DNA of 64,000 nt from an uncultured Roseobacter sp. (GTDB lineage Bacteria > Pseudomonadota > Alphaproteobacteria > Rhodobacterales > Rhodobacteraceae), in assembly GCF_947495275.1 (NCBI RefSeq), contig NZ_CANLYL010000010.1:1-64000 (forward strand), written 5' to 3'. Each line of letters begins with the position of its first letter. Within the stretch, counting starts at the first letter, position 1. The notes beneath the pieces were generated by a model, which worked only from the letters and a program-made list of their open reading frames with translations, did no database searches and was not told the origin of the DNA. Below are positions 55-9,476 of this stretch, piece by piece. The position numbers were made by a program, and so were the translations under genes.

Positions 55-252
55 GTGAAGCAGCCGGTACATCCCATTAGCCGACCTCCAGCGGACCTTT
101 CGGATGCTGCAGTCGCAGCCCGCATAGCAGCCGTTCGCTACTTGCTCGAAGTTGAGTACCGGCTGAACGACCAGCGTGTGGACAAGCCGGTCGTTCTAAG
201 CCCTAAATCCAACGGGGGCAGTGTAAGTGAACCAGACACCAAAGAGAGTTAG
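55..252 (+). CDS. hypothetical small protein, possibly the C-terminal part of a longer gene
   Basis: An open frame of 65 codons from a GTG. The same frame is open back to base 1, so the true start may lie outside the window. The middle (AAVAARIAAVRYLLEVEYRL, roughly residues 18-38) looks like an amphipathic helix; the tail is polar. I do not recognise a family. It converges on cap3, and the two stop codons overlap. It could be a small island gene or chance coding, so confidence is low. Confidence 0.3.
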   Translation: MKQPVHPISRPPADLSDAAVAARIAAVRYLLEVEYRLNDQRVDKPVVLSPKSNGGSVSEPDTKES

Positions 253-815
253 CCGTCTCGTTCGCTATACTGGTCTGGACATTTGCCGTCGATCTCGTGG
301 CCTCCCGCACCAAAAGCCTTGCTCCCGGTCAATGATTTCGCGGTGAGAACGACCTTGCCGAAGGTACCTTGCGCAGATAGCTCCCACGTCGCTGGATCAC
401 CGTCAGTACCCACAATCAACATGATGAAAGCGTCAAGATCGTGATCTGATTCTCTGTAGAGATTGAGAATGGACCTAGCATCCAGGGACGACGCGGTTGG
501 CCGCGGCGATGGATGCGTGTGCCAAGTTCCGATAAAGTGAAGGCCCGATCCATGCTTTTGGAGAATATCAGCTTGCACGCTCGGCCGGTGGGGAATGTAA
601 CCATGCCGAGTTCTACGGTCTTGAGGGAAAGGTCCGGACGCTACATCGATTGTACAGCGCCGCCCTGGTGCATTGGAGAAAAGCGGGCCACCGGCTTCAC
701 GATCTTTCCACCTCAATTGGCGGTGCTTCAACAACACCTCGACCGCTTTAGGCGCAAGGCTATATCGAAGTTCGAGGTGTTCGCATACCCAAGCAGACAT
801 CATGAGCTTTCGCAA
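249..815 (-). CDS. cap3: Cap3: JAB/JAMM-family isopeptidase of a type II CBASS
   Basis: 188-residue JAB1/MPN-type metalloprotease. The JAMM signature is complete: Glu40 in REAGGPLF, then GTWHTHPSPRPTASSLD giving His99-x-His101, seven residues, Ser109 and Asp112. In known type II CBASS, Cap3 cleaves the bond that Cap2 makes between the C-terminus of the CD-NTase and target proteins, limiting or recycling the primed enzyme. The start overlaps the end of cap2 by 16 bases, which suggests translational coupling. ATG codons at residues 5 and 6 are alternative starts. The role is inferred from family and neighbours; no key residue is missing. Confidence 0.9.
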   Translation of the reverse strand: MRKLMMSAWVCEHLELRYSLAPKAVEVLLKHRQLRWKDREAGGPLFSNAPGRRCTIDVASGPFPQDRRTRHGYIPHRPSVQADILQKHGSGLHFIGTWHTHPSPRPTASSLDARSILNLYRESDHDLDAFIMLIVGTDGDPATWELSAQGTFGKVVLTAKSLTGSKAFGAGGHEIDGKCPDQYSERDG

Positions 816-2593
816 ATCCAGCAGTTATCGCGACGGGTCCACGAGCGCTCGAACTCCCCACCGGCCTCGCATGGCCGACCTACGAACTTCTTCCATTCTT
901 CGGACCAGTTTCCGCCGACAGCACCGAGTACGCGAGTAGGACCGGACCAAATCCTGTGAACATGGGTCGGGTCGCCTGTTAGTTGCTCAAGGCAAAGATC
1001 AGCTATCAGACCGTGACCGCGCGCAAGTTGCGATGCTCCATAGGGTTGAAAAGCACCTCCGCAAGCGGGATGCGTCCGCGTCGTCGTGCTTTCCGTCCAT
1101 TCGGCGACACGAAGCAGGCTATCCCCGAACTCGCTCAAGCCGCACCCAAAACATGGCCCGCCTTCCGTAATCGACACTGCATGCGCGGCAACTGCGTGCG
1201 GCTCCAACCACCCGTAGATCGCCGTAGGCGGACGATCTTGGGCAAGACGCCATGCTTCGAACGCACCTTCATCCATCCAGGAGCCGATCGCAACGAGAAT
1301 GATGTCCGAGCTGCGCAAGACCTCCGGTTCAGTTTCCGCGATCGTCTGCCAACGGACATGATATTCACGCACATTTGGGAGATGTGGGAACTCATTGCGC
1401 AACCTATCAGCCAACGCGTCCGCCTTCCAGCGCCCCACGTCCGACATACCCAGGTCGTGTCTGGATGTGTTTTCACTCGCGAGTACTTCGGGGTCGACTA
1501 GATTTAGCCCACCCACACCCGCTTTCGCTAGAAGTGTGGCAACCCCAGATCCAAGGGAACCGCATCCCAACACAGTGACAGTCTTGCCTTGAAGTGCTCG
1601 CACTTCCGGCAGTTGGTCTCGCCCATGCACCCATGCCGCATCAAGACGCTCCACCTCCATAGGTGAAATTTTCAAAGATGCACTGGCTCGCCGTTGGATC
1701 AAAACCTCGCGCGACATCTTCTTGGCTCTGAACCCGGCCGTTACATGCTTGCGCCCGCGCTCGGTCTCCTTCCGCGCGCCTGGGATCTCATACGCAATCA
1801 TCGTCGCATGTGGTCGCGTCGGCAGCGCGACAGTCACCACCAAGGCACCCGGACCGCACATAAGCATCTTGATCAAAGCATCCCGCTCTGCTCCCGGTGC
1901 CGCCATGTCCAATAGTTGTTTGGCATTGCCGGGTAGTTCTTGCGGGTTGGGTAAGGCATCCGGTCTCAGGACCACCGCTTGCTCGAACACCCAGGGCCGC
2001 GTCTGGCGTCCATGCCGACGATTCAGCCATTCGATCAAGTGTTCCGAGTTATCAGATAGAACGATACCCGTTCGGCCTCTCCATAAGTAAGCCATGGGCC
2101 CAGCGTACTCGCTCGGCGCCAACAGCGATCGGATCGGCCGTGGCGCGCTCTTGCGCCCAAGATAGGATAAGAACTCGTCGGAGATTTCGCGCTCGATGAA
2201 TTCTGGATTCGACCAATCCGCCGCAAGCTCCAACAGCCTCTTCAGGTAGGCACGTGCAATCCCGACCGGATTGGCAGGATCTACCGGGGTTCGGCTGGGA
2301 AAGGCACAGATGAACCCATCTGCTTCCAGATGTGGAAGAGTGCCGAGCGCCGGCGGGCATCGCATGTAGAGCCGTGGTGCCGACCAGGGGAAGACGGCGT
2401 CGAACACCAAGTCTACCTCCACAACGTCTGGCTCGACCGCTACCCTGAAGCGCCAACCTGCGACCCAAGGCCCCTTTGGCAGACGTCGCAGATCGTCGGC
2501 AGTAAGTCTCTGTCCGCGCCATTGGGTCTCAGCAGCCCGACCGACACTACCAAGCACATCGCTCATGCCAGCAAGATCAGGCGTAGCGTTCAT
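800..2593 (-). CDS. cap2: Cap2: fused E2-E1 ubiquitin-transfer-like enzyme of a type II CBASS
   Basis: 597 residues. The N-terminal E2-like domain has the probable catalytic Cys96 in DGFICAFPS. The E1/ThiF domain has an adenylate-binding loop VLGCGSLGSG (341-350), a following acidic/Arg segment ENTSRHD (374-380) and a likely catalytic Cys511 in THPACGG. CxxC pairs at 481-484 and near the C-terminus (CWIC) could bind zinc. Cap2 activates the C-terminus of its partner CD-NTase and conjugates it to targets, priming nucleotide synthesis. The start lies inside the end of the CD-NTase gene (17-base overlap). Length and domain order match the family. Confidence 0.93.
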   Translation of the reverse strand: MNATPDLAGMSDVLGSVGRAAETQWRGQRLTADDLRRLPKGPWVAGWRFRVAVEPDVVEVDLVFDAVFPWSAPRLYMRCPPALGTLPHLEADGFICAFPSRTPVDPANPVGIARAYLKRLLELAADWSNPEFIEREISDEFLSYLGRKSAPRPIRSLLAPSEYAGPMAYLWRGRTGIVLSDNSEHLIEWLNRRHGRQTRPWVFEQAVVLRPDALPNPQELPGNAKQLLDMAAPGAERDALIKMLMCGPGALVVTVALPTRPHATMIAYEIPGARKETERGRKHVTAGFRAKKMSREVLIQRRASASLKISPMEVERLDAAWVHGRDQLPEVRALQGKTVTVLGCGSLGSGVATLLAKAGVGGLNLVDPEVLASENTSRHDLGMSDVGRWKADALADRLRNEFPHLPNVREYHVRWQTIAETEPEVLRSSDIILVAIGSWMDEGAFEAWRLAQDRPPTAIYGWLEPHAVAAHAVSITEGGPCFGCGLSEFGDSLLRVAEWTESTTTRTHPACGGAFQPYGASQLARGHGLIADLCLEQLTGDPTHVHRIWSGPTRVLGAVGGNWSEEWKKFVGRPCEAGGEFERSWTRRDNCWICESS

Positions 2594-3860
2594 CTCCGCC
2601 CAGCTTCACCGCAGGCCGCTCGTCCTTGGTTTCAAGAAAGTTGTTGGTCAGTGTCTCCGGAGCAGCAAGGGTTCCCCCCACTTGGGCCGCGTCGTCAACG
2701 AGAAGGCTCACATCCGTCGGAAATCTCGAACCGAGGGCGTCTAACATATACCGCACTGTGGCCTGAGGCGTGCTCGATCTGATCAGCGCCGCTTCCAGCT
2801 GCGCCTCCAAGTCCATTGCAGCTGAAGCAAATATCTGGCGGTCTGTATGGCTCCATCCTTGGTCAAGGCGCTCACCCGGGACAACCGGGTTCGGTATCTC
2901 TTGGCGCAAGATGTCGGGGAGTGCGCGCGCCACGGCAAGAAGGGCCAGATCATCGCGGCCGTTGAATGGTTTATAGCCCTGATGGTTCTTGAACACTTCA
3001 ACGACCGCCCACATGAGAGCTATCGACGCAAGGCCAACCAGATCCTGCTCGTCCCGCCAGGCCTTCAGGTAGCGAGAGACGAAGCGAACTTGGTCTCCGT
3101 GATCCCTCACGGCATCCCGGAACCAGTCTTCAAGTTTTCGCGGGTCGGACGGGATCCACTTGCCGCACCCGTCATCGCCGCGGCAGGCCAAACGCATCTG
3201 GTCAGCAGAGAGCCGACCATAGATTTCATTGGCAAAGTCATCATCGCGCAAATCCATGAAACCATCCCTGATCACACGGTTTTGGGCCATCGCCGTTTCG
3301 ACCAAGGTTACGAATTCTTTCTCCGGAACAGCGTAGAGCGCGATGTCCACGTGCGCCTCCCGGTCAATCTCGACACGAACGCAAGATGTCTTCTTTTTGA
3401 GCGTCCACCCGTTCTTTTCGCAAACATCTGATACAAGCTGCTCGACGGCTTTGAAGTAGCCATCTGCCGCAACAGAAGGTGCAAGAGCACCGTCGCGATT
3501 GATGTAACGTGTCGGAAGGAACATGCCATCGTCCAGATCGATCTGAAGCGGCGGCGTCTTGCCCTTCGCCGGATCGTTCACTGTGGAGTATGAAAAGCTT
3601 CCCTGCATCCGAAACTTCGGCCGACCGAAAGCCTCGGTGATATCCGCCTGCTCAGAGTTGAGTGCAACGATCGCATCACGCGTGACCATTTCGGTTATAG
3701 GAAATCGGTCGGTCCAGTCCTTCAGTCCCGAACGTATCGCGTCTCGCAACTCGTCACGGACCGCGCGCAGCTCTTCTTCACGCTCCTTGGGAAGCTTGAG
3801 CTTCTTGACGTAGCAGCTCTCGTTGGCACTGTTGAGCGCTTTATGTGCGTTCACCGGCAT
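2577..3860 (-). CDS. CD-NTase (DncV-like cyclic oligonucleotide synthase), sensor enzyme of CBASS
   Basis: 427 residues, close to V. cholerae DncV in length. The nucleotidyltransferase core shows the GS motif in MQGSFSYSTVND (Gly87-Ser88), the first two metal-binding acids in QIDLDDGMFLP (Asp108, Asp110) and the third in HVDIALY (Asp172). It is expected to make a cyclic di- or trinucleotide when phage infects; DncV itself makes 3',3'-cGAMP, but the product cannot be read here. The C-terminus (GGDERYA) is a free flexible tail, as expected for a Cap2 conjugation substrate. An upstream AGAAGGGAAC serves as the ribosome site. First gene of the cap operon. Confidence 0.93.
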   Translation of the reverse strand: MPVNAHKALNSANESCYVKKLKLPKEREEELRAVRDELRDAIRSGLKDWTDRFPITEMVTRDAIVALNSEQADITEAFGRPKFRMQGSFSYSTVNDPAKGKTPPLQIDLDDGMFLPTRYINRDGALAPSVAADGYFKAVEQLVSDVCEKNGWTLKKKTSCVRVEIDREAHVDIALYAVPEKEFVTLVETAMAQNRVIRDGFMDLRDDDFANEIYGRLSADQMRLACRGDDGCGKWIPSDPRKLEDWFRDAVRDHGDQVRFVSRYLKAWRDEQDLVGLASIALMWAVVEVFKNHQGYKPFNGRDDLALLAVARALPDILRQEIPNPVVPGERLDQGWSHTDRQIFASAAMDLEAQLEAALIRSSTPQATVRYMLDALGSRFPTDVSLLVDDAAQVGGTLAAPETLTNNFLETKDERPAVKLGGDERYA

Positions 3861-4024
3861 AATGTTCCCTTCTCGTTTTAATGGCCAAAAACATCAACTG
3901 GACTTTCAGCCTGTCGGATGGGACAACACCATGTAGCGGCTAGAGAGTCGTAAGCCCGCAACATATATGGCTTTTCCGACCTGATTCCAAGAGGTGGGTG
4001 TCCCGAAGTGTAGGAGAACAAAAC
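3861..4024. promoter_or_regulatory. divergent intergenic region of the CBASS locus
   Basis: 164 bases separate the CD-NTase start (minus strand) from the effector start (plus strand), so promoters for both arms must lie here or be absent. The plus-strand gene has TAGGAGAAC ending six bases before its ATG. No -35/-10 pair or operator stood out, so this is a positional inference only. Confidence 0.45.
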
Positions 4025-4780
4025 ATGTATGCACTATTGCCATGGAAAACTCTGGGTACGGCGCTGATGATCGTTGTCGGACTTGCCGTCTATGCAGACA
4101 ATTTCGGCGCTTGGGTTGGTGTGACGGTTTCCGACTCGGTGGTCATCCGCTACCTGCCAGTGGCTGTTCTTACGTTACTCGGTATTGTCTTCGGCCTCAC
4201 GGCCTACTGGGCACCATGGCGGTTCCTTTGGCGAACGATGCCTGTGCTCAACCGGACGGTGTTCCCGGACCTTAATGGTGTGTGGGTCGGGACGACTGCA
4301 TCGAACTGGCCGACGATTGAAAAGATGCGGAACGCGGCGACTACCGAGAGCGTAATCGACCTTGCTGAACTCTACGAAACAGCGGAGCGCCACGATGCCA
4401 TCGCGGTTGAGATTACCGCTTCGTTGTACTCATTAAGGCTTGCGACGGGGCTGAGTTCCATGGACGCTACGTCTTACTCAATCACCGCACGCCCCTGGAA
4501 GTGCCAGCATACGCCACGCATTCACCTCGCTTATGTGTATGAGCAGGAAACCAAAGACCCCTCGGCCACGGACGAAGAACGCCACATGGGGGCAGCCGAC
4601 CTCGTTTATGATGCGCATTCTCCGAATAGCCTCGAAGGTGTCTATTGGACGAGGCGAAGCTGGATCGAAGGGCTGAATACGGCTGGCCGTCTCAGATTAC
4701 GCCGAGTGGCGCCGTCGAAAGTTTCCTCGAAGACCCTTCGCGATTATGCCCTGGAAGAAAAGGCGCGGCTCGATCCATGA
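4025..4780 (+). CDS. cap15: Cap15-like membrane effector of CBASS (2TM plus beta-barrel domain)
   Basis: 251 residues from the ATG preceded by GGAG at the right distance; an upstream in-frame GTG at 3998 is less likely. Two hydrophobic segments lie at about 10-25 and 42-62, followed by a soluble domain opening with FPDLNGVWVG (80-89), the beginning characteristic of S-2TMbeta/Cap15 effectors. In described systems, cyclic nucleotide binding to the beta-barrel makes Cap15 oligomerise and disrupt the inner membrane, killing the infected cell. It is transcribed away from the CD-NTase operon, 164 bases from it. Assignment rests on architecture, motif and context. Confidence 0.82.
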   Translation: MYALLPWKTLGTALMIVVGLAVYADNFGAWVGVTVSDSVVIRYLPVAVLTLLGIVFGLTAYWAPWRFLWRTMPVLNRTVFPDLNGVWVGTTASNWPTIEKMRNAATTESVIDLAELYETAERHDAIAVEITASLYSLRLATGLSSMDATSYSITARPWKCQHTPRIHLAYVYEQETKDPSATDEERHMGAADLVYDAHSPNSLEGVYWTRRSWIEGLNTAGRLRLRRVAPSKVSSKTLRDYALEEKARLDP

Positions 4781-5097
4781 TGTCCATCTTCTGCTAGCAA
4801 TCCTACTGGTTTTGCGACGGAGAGCCTTCGTGTTTATTGATCCGTTGCCAACTGTCTAAGTCGGATATCCGTGTCGTTGGCTATTTCACAACAGCTGCCG
4901 ACCGATGCGAAACAGCAGCACGGTAGGTAGGTTTGGGCGCCGGAGCCGCCACTTCGCGAAGCTTCGTATAGTCCGCCTCCTGCGCATTTCTGGCCTTTAT
5001 GTCCACTGCAAAATTTGAGCGGCGCATCCGCATCCTTGAATGGCCGCTTTGATCTCTCCGTTGGAGCGATCTCGCATGTGCAGCGAACTCACACTTC
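4781..5097. other. non-coding stretch between the effector gene and the IS
   Basis: No convincing gene. A minus-strand open frame (4881-5162) crosses into the predicted IS end and has a composition unlike a protein. A long spacer of this kind beside an IS is common in islands and may hold decayed sequence. Confidence 0.5.
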
Positions 5098-5118
5098 CCG
5101 CCAATTCTGTGGAAAAAC
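5098..5118 (+). repeat. left inverted repeat of the IS
   Basis: Begins CCGCCAATTC and ends GTGGAAAAAC. It pairs with the complement of 6620-6640 (16 of 21 identical). The downstream side of the transposase gene ends 57 bases inside it. Confidence 0.55.
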
Positions 5119-5174
5119 AACGTGTTGCGAGCGCAGAAAGTAGTGTTTTGAGCGTGGTGCAAGCGCCTTTCTGA

Positions 5175-6560
5175 TCAGGCTTTGCGCGTTTGCTGCGGTG
5201 CAGGAAAGATCTTTGCTAGTTTCCGGATGTTCTGAGCTGTGGCAGCGAGGAGGAATTCGTCATTTGCGCCGCATGGTCCACGTAATCGGAGGCGACCCAG
5301 TCCTAGGATACGTTTGAGATGTGCAAAAAGCATCTCGACCTTCTTCCTGAGCTTCATGGAGATCGCGTATTGCTTGGTTTTGGCGATGTCGCGCGCGACC
5401 TGGCGGGCGTCTTCAGTTTCTTCTCGCGTGATCTTCCGCGCGTCGGCGTTCGGACAGCACTTGGATTTGGACGGGCAAGCTTGGCAGACCTCCTTGAGAG
5501 CACGATAGCGCGTAGTGCCTTTTCCCGTTGGCCCTCGGTTTGGATCGGAATAGTTGCGACGAAACTGCTTGAAAGCATGTCCCTCTGGACAGATGTACTG
5601 GTCGTTCGTGGCATCCCATTCGAAGTCGGCACGTGTCCACGTTCCGTCATTGCGGCCAGACTTATCGAAGACTGGGATGTGTGGTGCAATCTGGCGATCA
5701 ACCAACCAGCCAAGCAATGGCCCGGTGCCGTAGGCGGTATCGGCAATCAGACGTTCAGGATGCAGATCGAACTTTGCTTTGACCCGTTTCAGCATCGTTT
5801 TGGTTGATCCGACCTCCGCTTGTCGGATTGAGCGGGTCGCTTCGACATCGACGATCACACCGTGGTCTGTGTCGATCAGATAATTGTCAGAATAGCTAAA
5901 GAATGCTGGCCCTTTGCGTGCTGCCGTCCACTGGCTGGCCGGGTCAGAATGCGACGTGAACTTTGGCTGCACCTCGCTCGCCGCGCCGAATGCCGCCTCA
6001 TCCAGAGTGTCGAGATACTCGCGAACCGCGCGAGGCGCATCTTTTGGATCAATGCTTGATACGTCCCACTCTTCCTTTGGCGTGGAATTCTGTTTGTTCG
6101 CATCAGCCTCGATCAGACTGGCATCAATAGCCATGCGCTGGCCGCTGACGAGACCTTCCGCGATGCACCGCGCCACTGTCGTCTCGAATATATGACGCAG
6201 CAGTTCGCTGTCACGGAAACAGCCATGGCGGTTCTTGGAAAACGTCGAATGATCCGGCACCCGGTCGTTCAGGTCAAGGCGGCAGAACCAGCGATAGGAA
6301 AGATTCAAATGAACTTCTTCGCAAAGACGTCGTTCAGACCTGATCCCAAAGCAGTAGCCAACCAAAAGCATCCGGATCAGTAACTCGGGATCGACTGATG
6401 GACGCCCAGTATAGCTGTAGAAATCCGCCAGATGCGCGCGAATGCTGTCCAGATCGACAAACCGATCAATTGAGCGGAGCAGGTGATCTTGCGGGACATG
6501 ATCTTCCAGCGAGAACTCATAAAACAGTGCCGCCTGCGCTTCCTGCTTCGGTCCCATCAT
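5175..6560 (-). CDS. IS1182-family transposase
   Basis: 461 residues from the second of two adjacent candidate starts, chosen because GGGAGGG lies upstream; a TTG two codons earlier is the alternative. The N-terminus has the conserved DUF772-type helical domain (SLEDHVPQDHLLRSID and YCFGIRSERRL). A DDE-type catalytic core follows, with acids in MAIDASLIEAD and ADTAYGTG, and a C-terminal segment EMLFAHLKRILGLGRLRLRG typical of the family. It appears full length with no frameshift, so the element may still be active. Confidence 0.92.
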   Translation of the reverse strand: MMGPKQEAQAALFYEFSLEDHVPQDHLLRSIDRFVDLDSIRAHLADFYSYTGRPSVDPELLIRMLLVGYCFGIRSERRLCEEVHLNLSYRWFCRLDLNDRVPDHSTFSKNRHGCFRDSELLRHIFETTVARCIAEGLVSGQRMAIDASLIEADANKQNSTPKEEWDVSSIDPKDAPRAVREYLDTLDEAAFGAASEVQPKFTSHSDPASQWTAARKGPAFFSYSDNYLIDTDHGVIVDVEATRSIRQAEVGSTKTMLKRVKAKFDLHPERLIADTAYGTGPLLGWLVDRQIAPHIPVFDKSGRNDGTWTRADFEWDATNDQYICPEGHAFKQFRRNYSDPNRGPTGKGTTRYRALKEVCQACPSKSKCCPNADARKITREETEDARQVARDIAKTKQYAISMKLRKKVEMLFAHLKRILGLGRLRLRGPCGANDEFLLAATAQNIRKLAKIFPAPQQTRKA

Positions 6561-6619
6561 CCTCAATCCCTCCCTATAGGACGAATTGAATCAGCGACTT
6601 ACGTTTCGATCAAGCCCGA

Positions 6620-6640
6620 GTTTTTCAACAAAATACGCCG
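6620..6640 (-). repeat. right inverted repeat of the IS
   Basis: On the minus strand it reads CGGCGTATTTTG then TTGAAAAAC, matching the left repeat at 16 of 21 positions. It sits 60 bases upstream of the transposase start. Confidence 0.55.
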
Positions 6641-6992
6641 ATCGCGAGAAGAACCCGAAAATCCGCTCTCTTATTTCTCCTTCAGAATCCGTTGCACCGG
6701 AAAAGTTCGCCCGATTTGCGCGGAGACGGCTGTAGGAGATCGACACATCGTCAAAGCATCGATTTGGCCGCCCCCGCGCCAAAATTCCCGACTGGCGCCC
6801 CATGGAGAAATTTCTTGCCACCTTTCGGAGCAAACAGAGTTTTTCAACATAATCCGTCCGTCGGGTTATAAACGGCTGGACTTCTGAGCGCTGCAGAGCG
6901 GTACTGTCGACATATTCAGCCGCCCGGACACTGCCGGGCTCCACTCAGTACAGGGCGAGGGATTGGCCTTTGCCTGCAGAGTGGAGAGCCGA
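6641..6992. other. non-coding stretch with a second, solitary IS-end-like sequence (6837-6857)
   Basis: No supported gene. Positions 6837-6849 repeat exactly the 13 bases GAGTTTTTCAACA found at 6618-6630 in the right IS repeat, in the same orientation, and continue with an IR-like sequence. This suggests a remnant end of a second related element. A minus-strand open frame over 6591-6944 spans both copies and looks like a by-product. The last 30 bases contain the ribosome site of the next gene. Confidence 0.5.
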
Positions 6993-7256
6993 ATGACGAC
7001 AACCCACAGTTCCAACCAACGGAGCGGCGTATCAGGTCGTGCCCGTGCCAGACCCACGCGCCAGGCTGAGCTTCGAAAGCTGCTGGCCCGCAGGTCCGGC
7101 GCATCAATTGCGCAGATCCAGAAGGCCTTCAACTGGCAACCCCACACGGTACGGGCTGCCATTTCCGCACAACGCAAATCCGGATCTGTGATCGTCCGCA
7201 GCAATACCGACAAAGGATCGGTGTACCGGATTGTTGAAGAAAGCGGCAGCCAATGA
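6993..7256 (+). CDS. DUF3489-family small winged-helix protein
   Basis: 87 residues from the ATG preceded by GGAGAG; a TTG at 6963 is a less likely start. A basic N-terminal tail precedes a compact domain (LRKLLARRSGASIAQIQKA, then WQPHTVRAAIS) that resembles a helix-turn-helix/winged-helix fold, ending GSVYRIVEE. It belongs to DUF3489, which typically sits upstream of DUF2924 and a serine recombinase in alphaproteobacterial islands. Its role is not established; DNA binding, perhaps steering recombination or repressing the cassette, is my inference. It overlaps the next gene by four bases. Confidence 0.8.
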   Translation: MTTTHSSNQRSGVSGRARARPTRQAELRKLLARRSGASIAQIQKAFNWQPHTVRAAISAQRKSGSVIVRSNTDKGSVYRIVEESGSQ

Positions 7257-7666
7257 GCACGGGCCGGGCTGATCAGGTAACGGTGCGGATGGCTGAGATC
7301 GAAGCCTATGATCGCGCGGAGTGTCTTTATCGCTGGAAAGAGATGTTTGGGCGCTCGCCGCCAAAATACCTCTCGCCGCAGTTTATGAAGCGGGTGCTGA
7401 TCTGGGAAGCGCAAAACAGGGCGCTGGGCGGTGTGTCAGCCAAAACCACGCACCGCCTGAACCGGATCGCAACTGGCAAGATCGCCCCCACGATCGCAAA
7501 ACCGGGATCGCATCTTGTCCGGGAATGGAACGGGCGAACGTATCAGGTCGAGGTGACAAACAGTGGCTATGTCATGGATGGCAAACCATGGCGATCGCTG
7601 TCGGCCATTGCCAGACACATCACCGGTGCGCACTGGTCCGGCCCGCGGTTCTTCGGCGTACAGTGA
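7253..7666 (+). CDS. DUF2924-family protein of the recombinase cassette
   Basis: 137 residues. The N-terminal helical part contains ECLYRWKEMFGRSPPKYLS, and the C-terminal part has the family hallmarks LVREWNGRTYQVEV, YVMDGKPWRSLSAIAR and ITGAHWSGPRFFG. These resemble a small strand-rich domain plus a helix-turn-helix-like segment. The family is almost always found directly before a large serine recombinase, as here. Function is unknown. Its stop codon shares one base with the recombinase start (TGATG), indicating coupled translation. Confidence 0.88.
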   Translation: MSTGRADQVTVRMAEIEAYDRAECLYRWKEMFGRSPPKYLSPQFMKRVLIWEAQNRALGGVSAKTTHRLNRIATGKIAPTIAKPGSHLVREWNGRTYQVEVTNSGYVMDGKPWRSLSAIARHITGAHWSGPRFFGVQ

Positions 7667-9294
7667 TGCGTCGGATCCGCTGCGCCATCTATACCCGAAA
7701 AAGCTCGGAGGAGGGTCTGGAGCAGGACTTCAACTCGCTGGATGCGCAACGGGAGGCCTGTGAGGCCTATGTCGCCAGCCAGAAGCACGAAGGCTGGGAG
7801 TTGCTGCCAGATTGTTATGACGATGGCGGGATCTCGGGCGGTCATCTTGATCGGCCTTCCTTACAGCGTCTGATGCGGGCAGTGGACGACAAACGTGTGG
7901 ATCAGATCGTCGTCTACAAGATCGACCGGCTGACCCGGTCTCTGGCCGACTTCGCCAAGCTGGTCGAGCGTCTGGATCGGGCGGATGCGTCCTTCGTGTC
8001 GGTCACCCAATCGTTCAACACGGCCACCAGCATGGGGCGGCTTACCCTCAATGTCCTTCTGAGCTTTGCCCAGTTCGAGCGCGAAGTCACGGCGGAACGC
8101 ATCCGCGACAAGATTGCGGCCTCCAAGCGCAAAGGGCTCTGGATGGGTGGGACTGTCCCGCTCGGCTACGAGGCGGATGGCCGGACGCTGAAGATCGAAC
8201 CGGACGAGGCGAAAACCATCAGGGCTCTTTATGAACTGTATCTGGAACATGGTCTCATCCGTGTCGTGAAAGACCGCGCAGAGGATCTTGGCCTCAGGTC
8301 ACGTGAGCGCGTTCACAGGGCAGGGCGTATCTCCGGCGGCACCCCTTTTGATCGCAGCCACATCCATCACATCCTGAGCAACCCGATCTATGCCGGGCGG
8401 ATCCGGCACAAGGAACAGGTTTACAACGGACAGCATCCGGCAATTATCGGCCCGGTGACCTGGGACCAGGTCCAGCAGATGCTGAAAGAAGGAGCCGCAA
8501 CGGCCCGTGGCACAAAGCGCAGGGTCACACGATCGCCGCTGGCCGGCAAACTCTATGATGAAACCGGCGACCGCCTGACGCCCAGTGACAGCCGGAAGAA
8601 TGGCAGGCGACTGCGCTACTATATCTCTCACAGGTTGGTGAAGGATCGGAGCCGGAAGCATCCGGACGCCTGGCGTTTGCCGGCAGACCAGCTGGAGGGG
8701 CTGATTGCCGATCTGGTCAGACAGCATTTGAAGCGACCGGATGTTGCAATGCGGCTTATCCCGGATCTGCCCGCGTCAGAGGTCACCGCCAGATCAGCTG
8801 GCCTGCATGCCATCCGGCAGACCACGGAATGTCTGCATCTGATCGAACGCGCTGACATGAGCCAGGGAGAAGTGTCCGTTCGGTTGTGTCAGACCAGACT
8901 TGCCTCGGTTCTTAAATGTGATGCAGACCTGATCAACACAGAAGAGCTGATCCTCATGTCGCCATTCCGGATGCGCAGGCGCGGTGTCGAGCTGAAACTG
9001 CATCTTGGGGACGCGGCACCCAAAGCCGATGTGACGTTGGTTCGGAACATCGTCAAAGCGCAGAGGTGGATGGCGATGATTGTTGCCGGAAAGACATTCA
9101 CTGAGATCGCACAGGCCGAGGGCACATCAAAGCGCCGGGTGCAGGATGTTGTCGACCTTGCGATGCTCGCACCAGACATCCTGCATGCGATCGCAGCCGG
9201 TGAGCAGTCGGAGGGTGTGACGTCTGACCGTCTCATCAAGTCAGGCGTTCCCGCCGACTGGTCAGAACAGCGCGCAAAGTTCGCGAAGCTGTAA
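7666..9294 (+). CDS. large serine recombinase (site-specific integrase/resolvase)
   Basis: 542 residues. The start was set at the ATG overlapping the DUF2924 stop; the open frame runs 115 codons further upstream but is not coding there. The N-terminal resolvase domain begins CAIYTRKSSEEGL, with the catalytic serine most likely Ser13, and continues through LSFAQFEREVTAERIRDK. The middle Recombinase domain (about 180-300) includes GTPFDRSHIHHILSNPIYAG. The C-terminal part ends with a helix-turn-helix-like segment (TFTEIAQAEGTSKRRVQDV). It probably moves the surrounding cassette or island. It reads toward the tRNA-Gln boundary. Confidence 0.93.
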   Translation: MRRIRCAIYTRKSSEEGLEQDFNSLDAQREACEAYVASQKHEGWELLPDCYDDGGISGGHLDRPSLQRLMRAVDDKRVDQIVVYKIDRLTRSLADFAKLVERLDRADASFVSVTQSFNTATSMGRLTLNVLLSFAQFEREVTAERIRDKIAASKRKGLWMGGTVPLGYEADGRTLKIEPDEAKTIRALYELYLEHGLIRVVKDRAEDLGLRSRERVHRAGRISGGTPFDRSHIHHILSNPIYAGRIRHKEQVYNGQHPAIIGPVTWDQVQQMLKEGAATARGTKRRVTRSPLAGKLYDETGDRLTPSDSRKNGRRLRYYISHRLVKDRSRKHPDAWRLPADQLEGLIADLVRQHLKRPDVAMRLIPDLPASEVTARSAGLHAIRQTTECLHLIERADMSQGEVSVRLCQTRLASVLKCDADLINTEELILMSPFRMRRRGVELKLHLGDAAPKADVTLVRNIVKAQRWMAMIVAGKTFTEIAQAEGTSKRRVQDVVDLAMLAPDILHAIAAGEQSEGVTSDRLIKSGVPADWSEQRAKFAKL

Positions 9295-9341
9295 GCTGAG
9301 ACCTTCCGCAACCCCTCAAACCCGTACCGTCGGAATCGCAA

Positions 9342-9395
9342 ACAGAGACCAGGGCCTGAAACTGGCCCGATCTGCGCTCACGTGCGGGTCTCTGT
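9342..9395. repeat. 9-base inverted repeat between recombinase and tRNA
   Basis: ACAGAGACC at 9342-9350 is matched exactly by GGTCTCTGT at 9387-9395, with 36 bases between. There is no T-run, so it is not a standard terminator. It may be part of a recombination site or coincidental. Confidence 0.35.
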
Positions 9396-9476
9396 CGGAA
9401 ACCGCCTGTGCCAGGCGCCCGAAAACACGACACAATCAAGCGGCAAGTGCTCGGCAGTCAGAATCTCGGGAGTGGG

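Follow-up and report, generated by a model that had tools for sequence, protein, structure and literature searches.

A predicted type II CBASS in an uncultured Roseobacter sp. with its Cap15-family effector encoded divergently from the synthase operon

In type II cyclic oligonucleotide-based antiphage signalling systems (CBASS), the synthase typically ends in Ala or Gly, and this final residue is described as being conjugated to lysine (PMC11153139), and the product of Vibrio cholerae DncV is given as 3'3'-cGAMP (PMC10653837). The mechanism of the effector Cap15 is summarised in PMC10419184 and PMC10686824, and Panoptes is already published as a frequent neighbour of CBASS (PMC12657218). We examined a CBASS locus in a window of 64,000 nt from an uncultured Roseobacter sp. 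(positions 1 to 64,000 of contig NZ_CANLYL010000010.1, assembly GCF_947495275.1). The window begins at base 1 of the contig, so the locus lies at a contig end with one flank cut off. An initial annotation, made from the sequence alone, had proposed a type II CBASS with a Cap15-like effector, an identity backed by profiles, active-site residues and a predicted fold. We put a probability of roughly 90% on this locus being a complete type II CBASS of four genes with a Cap15-family effector, in a layout typical of its lineage and with predicted activity.

Searches with PADLOC, Pfam and NCBIfam profiles assigned, at scores well beyond chance, CdnA, Cap2, Cap3 and a 2TM/Cap15 effector to four open reading frames (ORFs), each lying where the annotation had placed it (Table 1). 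The synthase, called a DncV-like cGAS/DncV-like nucleotidyltransferase (CD-NTase) with intact GS and Asp motifs, scored 279 bits against NF041078 (NCBIfam cut-off 150), 82.9 against PF21654 (cut-off 24.9) and 54.1 against PF21713 (cut-off 28.4). A phmmer search of the PDB returned nine sequences for it, with DncV and VC0179-like chains nearest (best E 8.5e-33) and another CD-NTase as the ninth. In an alignment of 15 synthases (the window's included), the motifs were found at G87-S88, D108/D110 (D-x-D) and a third Asp, D172; GG replaces GS in one locus (L091) and in the two aligned cyclases that are partnered with an E2-only protein. Cap2 matched the PADLOC E1-E2 model (E=2e-170), PF14461 (33.8, cut-off 25.4) and PF00899 (59.0, cut-off 28.1), and Cap2 chains were the best 3 of its 19 PDB matches (best E 6.7e-10, phmmer). 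Its E2 and E1 cysteines, also named in the annotation, are Cys96 and Cys511, and both are present in every one of 13 aligned Cap2 proteins (the window's among them). Cap3 matched the PADLOC JAB model (E=8.5e-42), PF14464 (26.0, barely above the cut-off of 25.0) and a PDB chain named peptidase (E 4e-8, phmmer), and an alignment of 10 Cap3 proteins, again with the window's, located a full JAMM motif (E40, H99-x-H101 and D112, numbered from the TTG at 815). These motif positions of CdnA, Cap2 and Cap3 are taken as the catalytic ones of their families. The locus thus combines an intact CD-NTase ending in Ala, Cap2 with both cysteines and Cap3 with the JAMM residues, as in type II CBASS.

The effector matched the PADLOC 2TM model PDLC00674 over positions 1-246 of 246 (E=3.3e-103), and since this model fits the full length, the family is already present in earlier collections. 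Two hydrophobic stretches (within residues 3-31 and 37-64, by hydropathy), a match to PF18153 (37.1 bits, cut-off 31.2) and an AF2 model (predicted local distance difference test, pLDDT, 82.2) whose best PDB fold match is Cap15 (7n34/7n35) together describe the two transmembrane (TM) helices and cyclic-dinucleotide-receptor beta-barrel of a Cap15 protein. The predicted fold is therefore Cap15-like, the property whose absence would have counted against the annotation. The start is an ATG within a longer ORF (3998-4780), and AGGAG at 4012-4016 is its likely ribosome-binding site. The motif PDLNGVW, taken in the annotation for the start of the protein, is present but occupies residues 81-87, where the barrel domain begins. 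Because the OptE-like proteins beside two relatives (L006, L007) carry PDLNGTW, which is nearly identical, the motif alone marks the S-2TM-beta family and not Cap15. The pairing of a DncV-like synthase with a Cap15-type effector, singled out as worth confirming, is supported by profiles, active-site residues and predicted fold, but is less odd than supposed: a cGAMP-making CdnE03-Cap15 pair is described in PMC10686824.

Several results weigh against the reading as a Cap15-bearing type II CBASS. Cap3 scored 44.9 bits against the NCBIfam Cap3 equivalog NF050170, under its cut-off of 200. A phmmer search of PDB sequences with the effector gave 0 matches at E 10, leaving the solved Cap15 chains undetected, and a profile search of the same database gave 4 matches, none of them Cap15. 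Because sequence similarity to the solved Cap15 proteins is below detection, their ligand is not transferable to this effector; Yersinia-type Cap15 is described in PMC10419184 as a sensor of uracil-containing dinucleotides. No CD-NTase was recognised alongside 12 of the 29 effector loci surveyed below (L022-L028, L030-L034), several of which are fragments or contig ends, and a scan of 3700-4100 with the sigma-70 consensus returned 0 promoter-like sites.

Table 1. Features of the CBASS locus and its visible flank, in window coordinates
Feature	Position	Strand	Remarks
Cap3, JAB/JAMM isopeptidase	249..815	-	188 aa from TTG; internal ATG start possible
Cap2, E2-E1 fusion	800..2593	-	597 aa; overlaps with neighbours 16 and 17 bp
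CdnA, DncV-like cGAMP synthase	2577..3860	-	427 aa; C-terminal Ala
Divergent intergenic region	3861..4024	.	164 bp; conserved core ~3897-3952
Cap15-family effector	4025..4780	+	251 aa; two N-terminal TM helices and beta-barrel
Transposase	5175..6566	-	PF05598, PF13751; neighbour, outside system
DUF3489 - DUF2924 - large serine recombinase	6963..9294	+	PF11994, PF11149, PF00239 + PF07508; neighbours

The ORF coordinates bear out the back-to-back placement of the synthase and effector start codons that the annotation had set against the shared operon of most known type II loci. We surveyed this layout from both sides of the junction. An alignment of 30 effectors, searched against genome contigs of 84,980 species, yielded 29 loci: five are divergent to CdnA-Cap2 (L006, L007, L008, L017, L029; phmmer), in 11 the divergent partner is another cyclase (L009-L016, L018, L020, L021) and one, from Methylophaga (L019), is co-directional with CdnA-Cap2-Cap3. 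An E2-only protein follows the other cyclase in 10 of the 11 and was not seen in L018, where the cyclase is a fragment match only. Two near-identical viral-collection contigs with the effector are divergent too. In the five closest relatives (L006, L007, L008, L017, L037; effectors 71-92% identical to the window's), the effector is kept beside the synthase and the pair is divergent in every case, so homologous loci do preserve the association. The locus is rare among nearest relatives: a search of 193 genomes for the effector turned up three (G012, the window's own and, by a weak match, G047), and a search of 186 for the synthase turned up two (again G012 and the window's own). PF18153 occurred in 6 of 398 genomes of a phylum-wide draw, the window's included; three loci of this draw are divergent (G000, G536 and G777, the last apparently the same as L021) and three are co-directional with a neighbour gene (G534, G770, G816), with sub-threshold SMODS matches in two of these neighbours and none in the third. 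A class-wide draw of 385 genomes gave three with PF18153, again counting the window's, and no Cap2 or known cyclase was recognised at the other two loci (L092, L093).

From the synthase side, a tblastn search with CdnA gave 62 plasmid records, 11 alphaproteobacterial ones of which entered the layout count, which leaves out eight Bradyrhizobium, one Agrobacterium and 32 further matching records. The effector is divergent in all 11 (eight CapV and three Cap15-type; L037, L110, L111, L113-L117, L123, L124, L126), five of which were reached via effector matches and six via synthase matches. Seven chromosomal loci, mostly found through the effector, were added (L006, L007, L008, L017, L029, L073, L091). 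Besides the window, all 18 alphaproteobacterial loci with a synthase over the NCBIfam cGAS cut-off (150 bits) are thus divergent (10 Cap15-type effectors, 8 CapV). Outside the class, a recognised effector accompanies five type II synthases over the cut-off (L118, L119, L071, L072, L019), and in all five the layout is co-directional. Three further synthases there also pass but were not counted: L125, with no recognised effector alongside; that of a Shewanella locus (L112, 152.6 bits), co-directional with a 2TM protein and with no Cap2; and a second L071 synthase with an unrecognised co-directional neighbour. A PF21654 draw gave 33 matches, 12 of them scored against the cut-off. Seven class members fall under it (L074-L076, L083, L085, L086, L095), and because three of these are co-directional (L074-L076, 112-137 bits, with CapV), we rejected the idea that every alphaproteobacterial CBASS is divergent. 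It is nonetheless no quirk of this genome, being usual for this synthase in Alphaproteobacteria. The observation is sound and somewhat more general than the initial annotation saw, and its kind is already known. No description of a divergently encoded CBASS effector was found in the titles or opening abstracts searched; subscription literature lies mostly outside them, and we make no claim to a first report of this layout.

Whether this layout has regulatory meaning depends on the region between the two genes, which should hold the 5' ends of both transcripts. The intergenic regions of six loci align with a mean column identity of 83%, and the gap measures 163-165 bp in all of them. This conservation is no proof of selection, since identity to the window in this region reaches 79-91% for four of the five relatives, which are hence too close. 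GACT and AGTC arms, 41 bp apart, were seen by eye to be invariant in the six loci within the core, although four-base arms prove nothing; an inverted-repeat search of 3861-4024 gave 0 pairs. On the visible flank of the locus, no gene was recognised as a regulator; the opposite flank is cut by the contig end. In one Paraburkholderia locus (L118, 2815-3723), capV-dncV-cap2-cap3 are co-directional and a WYL-domain gene is divergent to them, which resembles the CapW arrangement already published.

The back-to-back layout hints, without proof, at a plausible but putative separate control of effector and synthase. The odds stand about even that the layout is instead plain inheritance within a lineage, with both genes expressed constitutively at similar levels. 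The layout does track lineage, changing at least two times on a CdnA tree with 23 labelled rows (L017 not on the tree; no shuffle control), and neither a regulator gene nor a promoter or inverted repeat was recognised in the searches above. Against this stand the conserved core and near-constant gap, subject to the closeness of the relatives already given.

The two sides of the junction appear to have different affinities. The window's CdnA shares 41% identity with the L073 enzyme and 31-32% with those of L029 and L091, and barely aligns with the two E2-partnered cyclases compared (33% over 18 residues in L009; 22% over 99, E 0.005, in L014). Its effector, in contrast, shares 56% identity with that of L009 and 50% with that of L014, against 31-32% with those of L073, L029 and L091. 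On an S-2TM-beta tree of 35 proteins, the window's group joins the E2-partnered effectors (14 rows, 96/88), and this group nests in a 19-row set (100/99) without the other divergent CdnA-partnered effectors. Placing all CdnA-partnered divergent effectors in one clade gave an approximately unbiased p (p-AU) of 0.039 and a log-likelihood difference of 3.0, a hint only because the group was chosen after the tree was seen; a single clade of E2-partnered effectors was not rejected (p-AU 0.278). With the effector closer to E2-partnered loci and the synthase closer to CdnA loci, synthase or effector modules have therefore likely been exchanged across a kept divergent junction, although these sequence comparisons are not proof. 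It is a tentative and rather doubtful extension that the alphaproteobacterial CBASS effector is a separately controlled module, in which the junction would permit swaps of synthase modules (CdnA-Cap2-Cap3 or another cyclase plus an E2-only protein) and of effectors (Cap15-type or CapV), its own promoter would set dosage, and killing would need two independent inputs. With one effector family behind two barely aligning cyclases, it becomes possible to ask whether the two enzymes produce an identical signal.

Panoptes shares the S-2TM-beta effector family, and of the five nearest relatives, three have genes for mCpol and an OptE-like protein beside CBASS (L006 8089-8929, with mCpol running into the contig end; L007 1888-2897; L037 8816-9798). 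Of the other two, L008 shows none within its 9.3 kb and L017 ends inside the effector. A gene adjoining the 2TM protein in L110 and L114 was considered as mCpol; as this candidate has no Pfam match, the two loci were not counted as Panoptes. In the window's genome assembly (99.99% complete, 60 contigs), mCpol (PF18182) was not found, on which ground Panoptes was rejected as the identity of the locus, and a tblastn search for remnants, with genes flanking the relatives' loci as queries and 1-260 and 4771-9400 as targets, produced four weak hits, neither OptE nor mCpol among them. The effector might still act in the manner of OptE, which belongs to the same family and is described as working by inverted signalling (PMC12657218, PMC12657230): it would be toxic by default and restrained by a cyclic dinucleotide, with the divergent layout separating guard from toxin, as its place outside the synthase operon would allow. 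We consider this highly improbable. Three relatives (L006, L007, L037) hold a Cap15-type effector plus a separate OptE-like protein beside mCpol, and since the three OptE form a clade of their own on the S-2TM-beta tree (starred, 100/100), an inverted role is disfavoured. Moreover, the window's synthase is a CdnA with Cap2/Cap3 and not mCpol, and the best PADLOC match of the effector is a CBASS 2TM model, although those models also hit the OptE of L007, with weaker scores.

That the locus is decaying and possibly non-functional, as the position at a contig end and a transposase gene whose end lies 395 bp beyond the effector might suggest, is very unlikely given four open frames, kept overlaps and intact catalytic residues.

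The DUF3489, DUF2924 and recombinase genes are perhaps part of a mobile element carrying the locus. Metabolic-looking ORFs begin at ~9.7 kb, leaving the CBASS locus in a small island at the contig end, and positions 79-245, past Cap3, are 72-73% identical to the same place in L006 and L017 and may be a mobile-unit boundary common to them. Elsewhere in the survey, a Cap15-like effector lies beside a Cas10-like gene (Cas10-Cmr2 palm, Pfam) at L025 1-3451, where its frame looks broken, and L026 277-4233, and is a possible type III CRISPR effector. An uncharacterised protein of 460-490 aa precedes a 2TM barrel protein in two-gene units at L032 5423-7456 and L033 5394-7471, which may be a divergent signalling pair; a sub-threshold SMODS match was seen in L032 only.

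We infer the activity, ligand, signalling direction and promoters of the CBASS locus as follows. On phage infection, CdnA would make a cyclic dinucleotide, most likely 3'3'-cGAMP; Cap2 would conjugate the C-terminal Ala of CdnA to targets, priming the synthase, and Cap3 would remove the conjugate. The signal would bind the beta-barrel of the effector, itself transcribed divergently from the synthase operon by a putative promoter of its own, and drive oligomerisation through the two TM helices, disrupting the inner membrane so that the infected cell dies before phage release. The locus is a tidy example of a type II CBASS of four genes that includes a Cap15 effector; its lineage-typical layout makes the effector and synthase promoters separately measurable, and if control is separate, single-operon CBASS models would miss a layer of regulation.

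Compared with known systems, the locus shares a DncV-like synthase, Cap2, Cap3 and their order with VSP-1 of V. cholerae (capV-dncV-cap2-cap3), whose effector is the phospholipase CapV, described as leading the same operon of four genes (PMC10653837), whereas here a membrane barrel effector lies on the opposite strand. Panoptes (mCpol/OptS and OptE) resembles it in effector family and differs in its inverse signalling and its mCpol. In CapW loci, a regulator gene (capW, upstream on the opposite strand in 160 of 6,233 surveyed CBASS systems, PMC9122588) occupies the place that the effector itself holds here. Yersinia aleksiciae Cap15 (PDB 7n34, 7n35) matches the effector in fold and without detectable sequence similarity. 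The type I-B system of Staphylococcus schleiferi (CdnE03-Cap15) likewise joins a cGAMP-making synthase to Cap15, but is described as a two-gene operon without Cap2/Cap3 (PMC10686824). Alphaproteobacterial type II (short) CBASS, with E2 only, have effectors that are 38-56% identical to the window's and are also divergent, while their cyclase is a different one (PADLOC PDLC00783) and an E2 carrying a SEC-C motif stands in place of Cap2/Cap3 (two cyclases and one E2 scanned).

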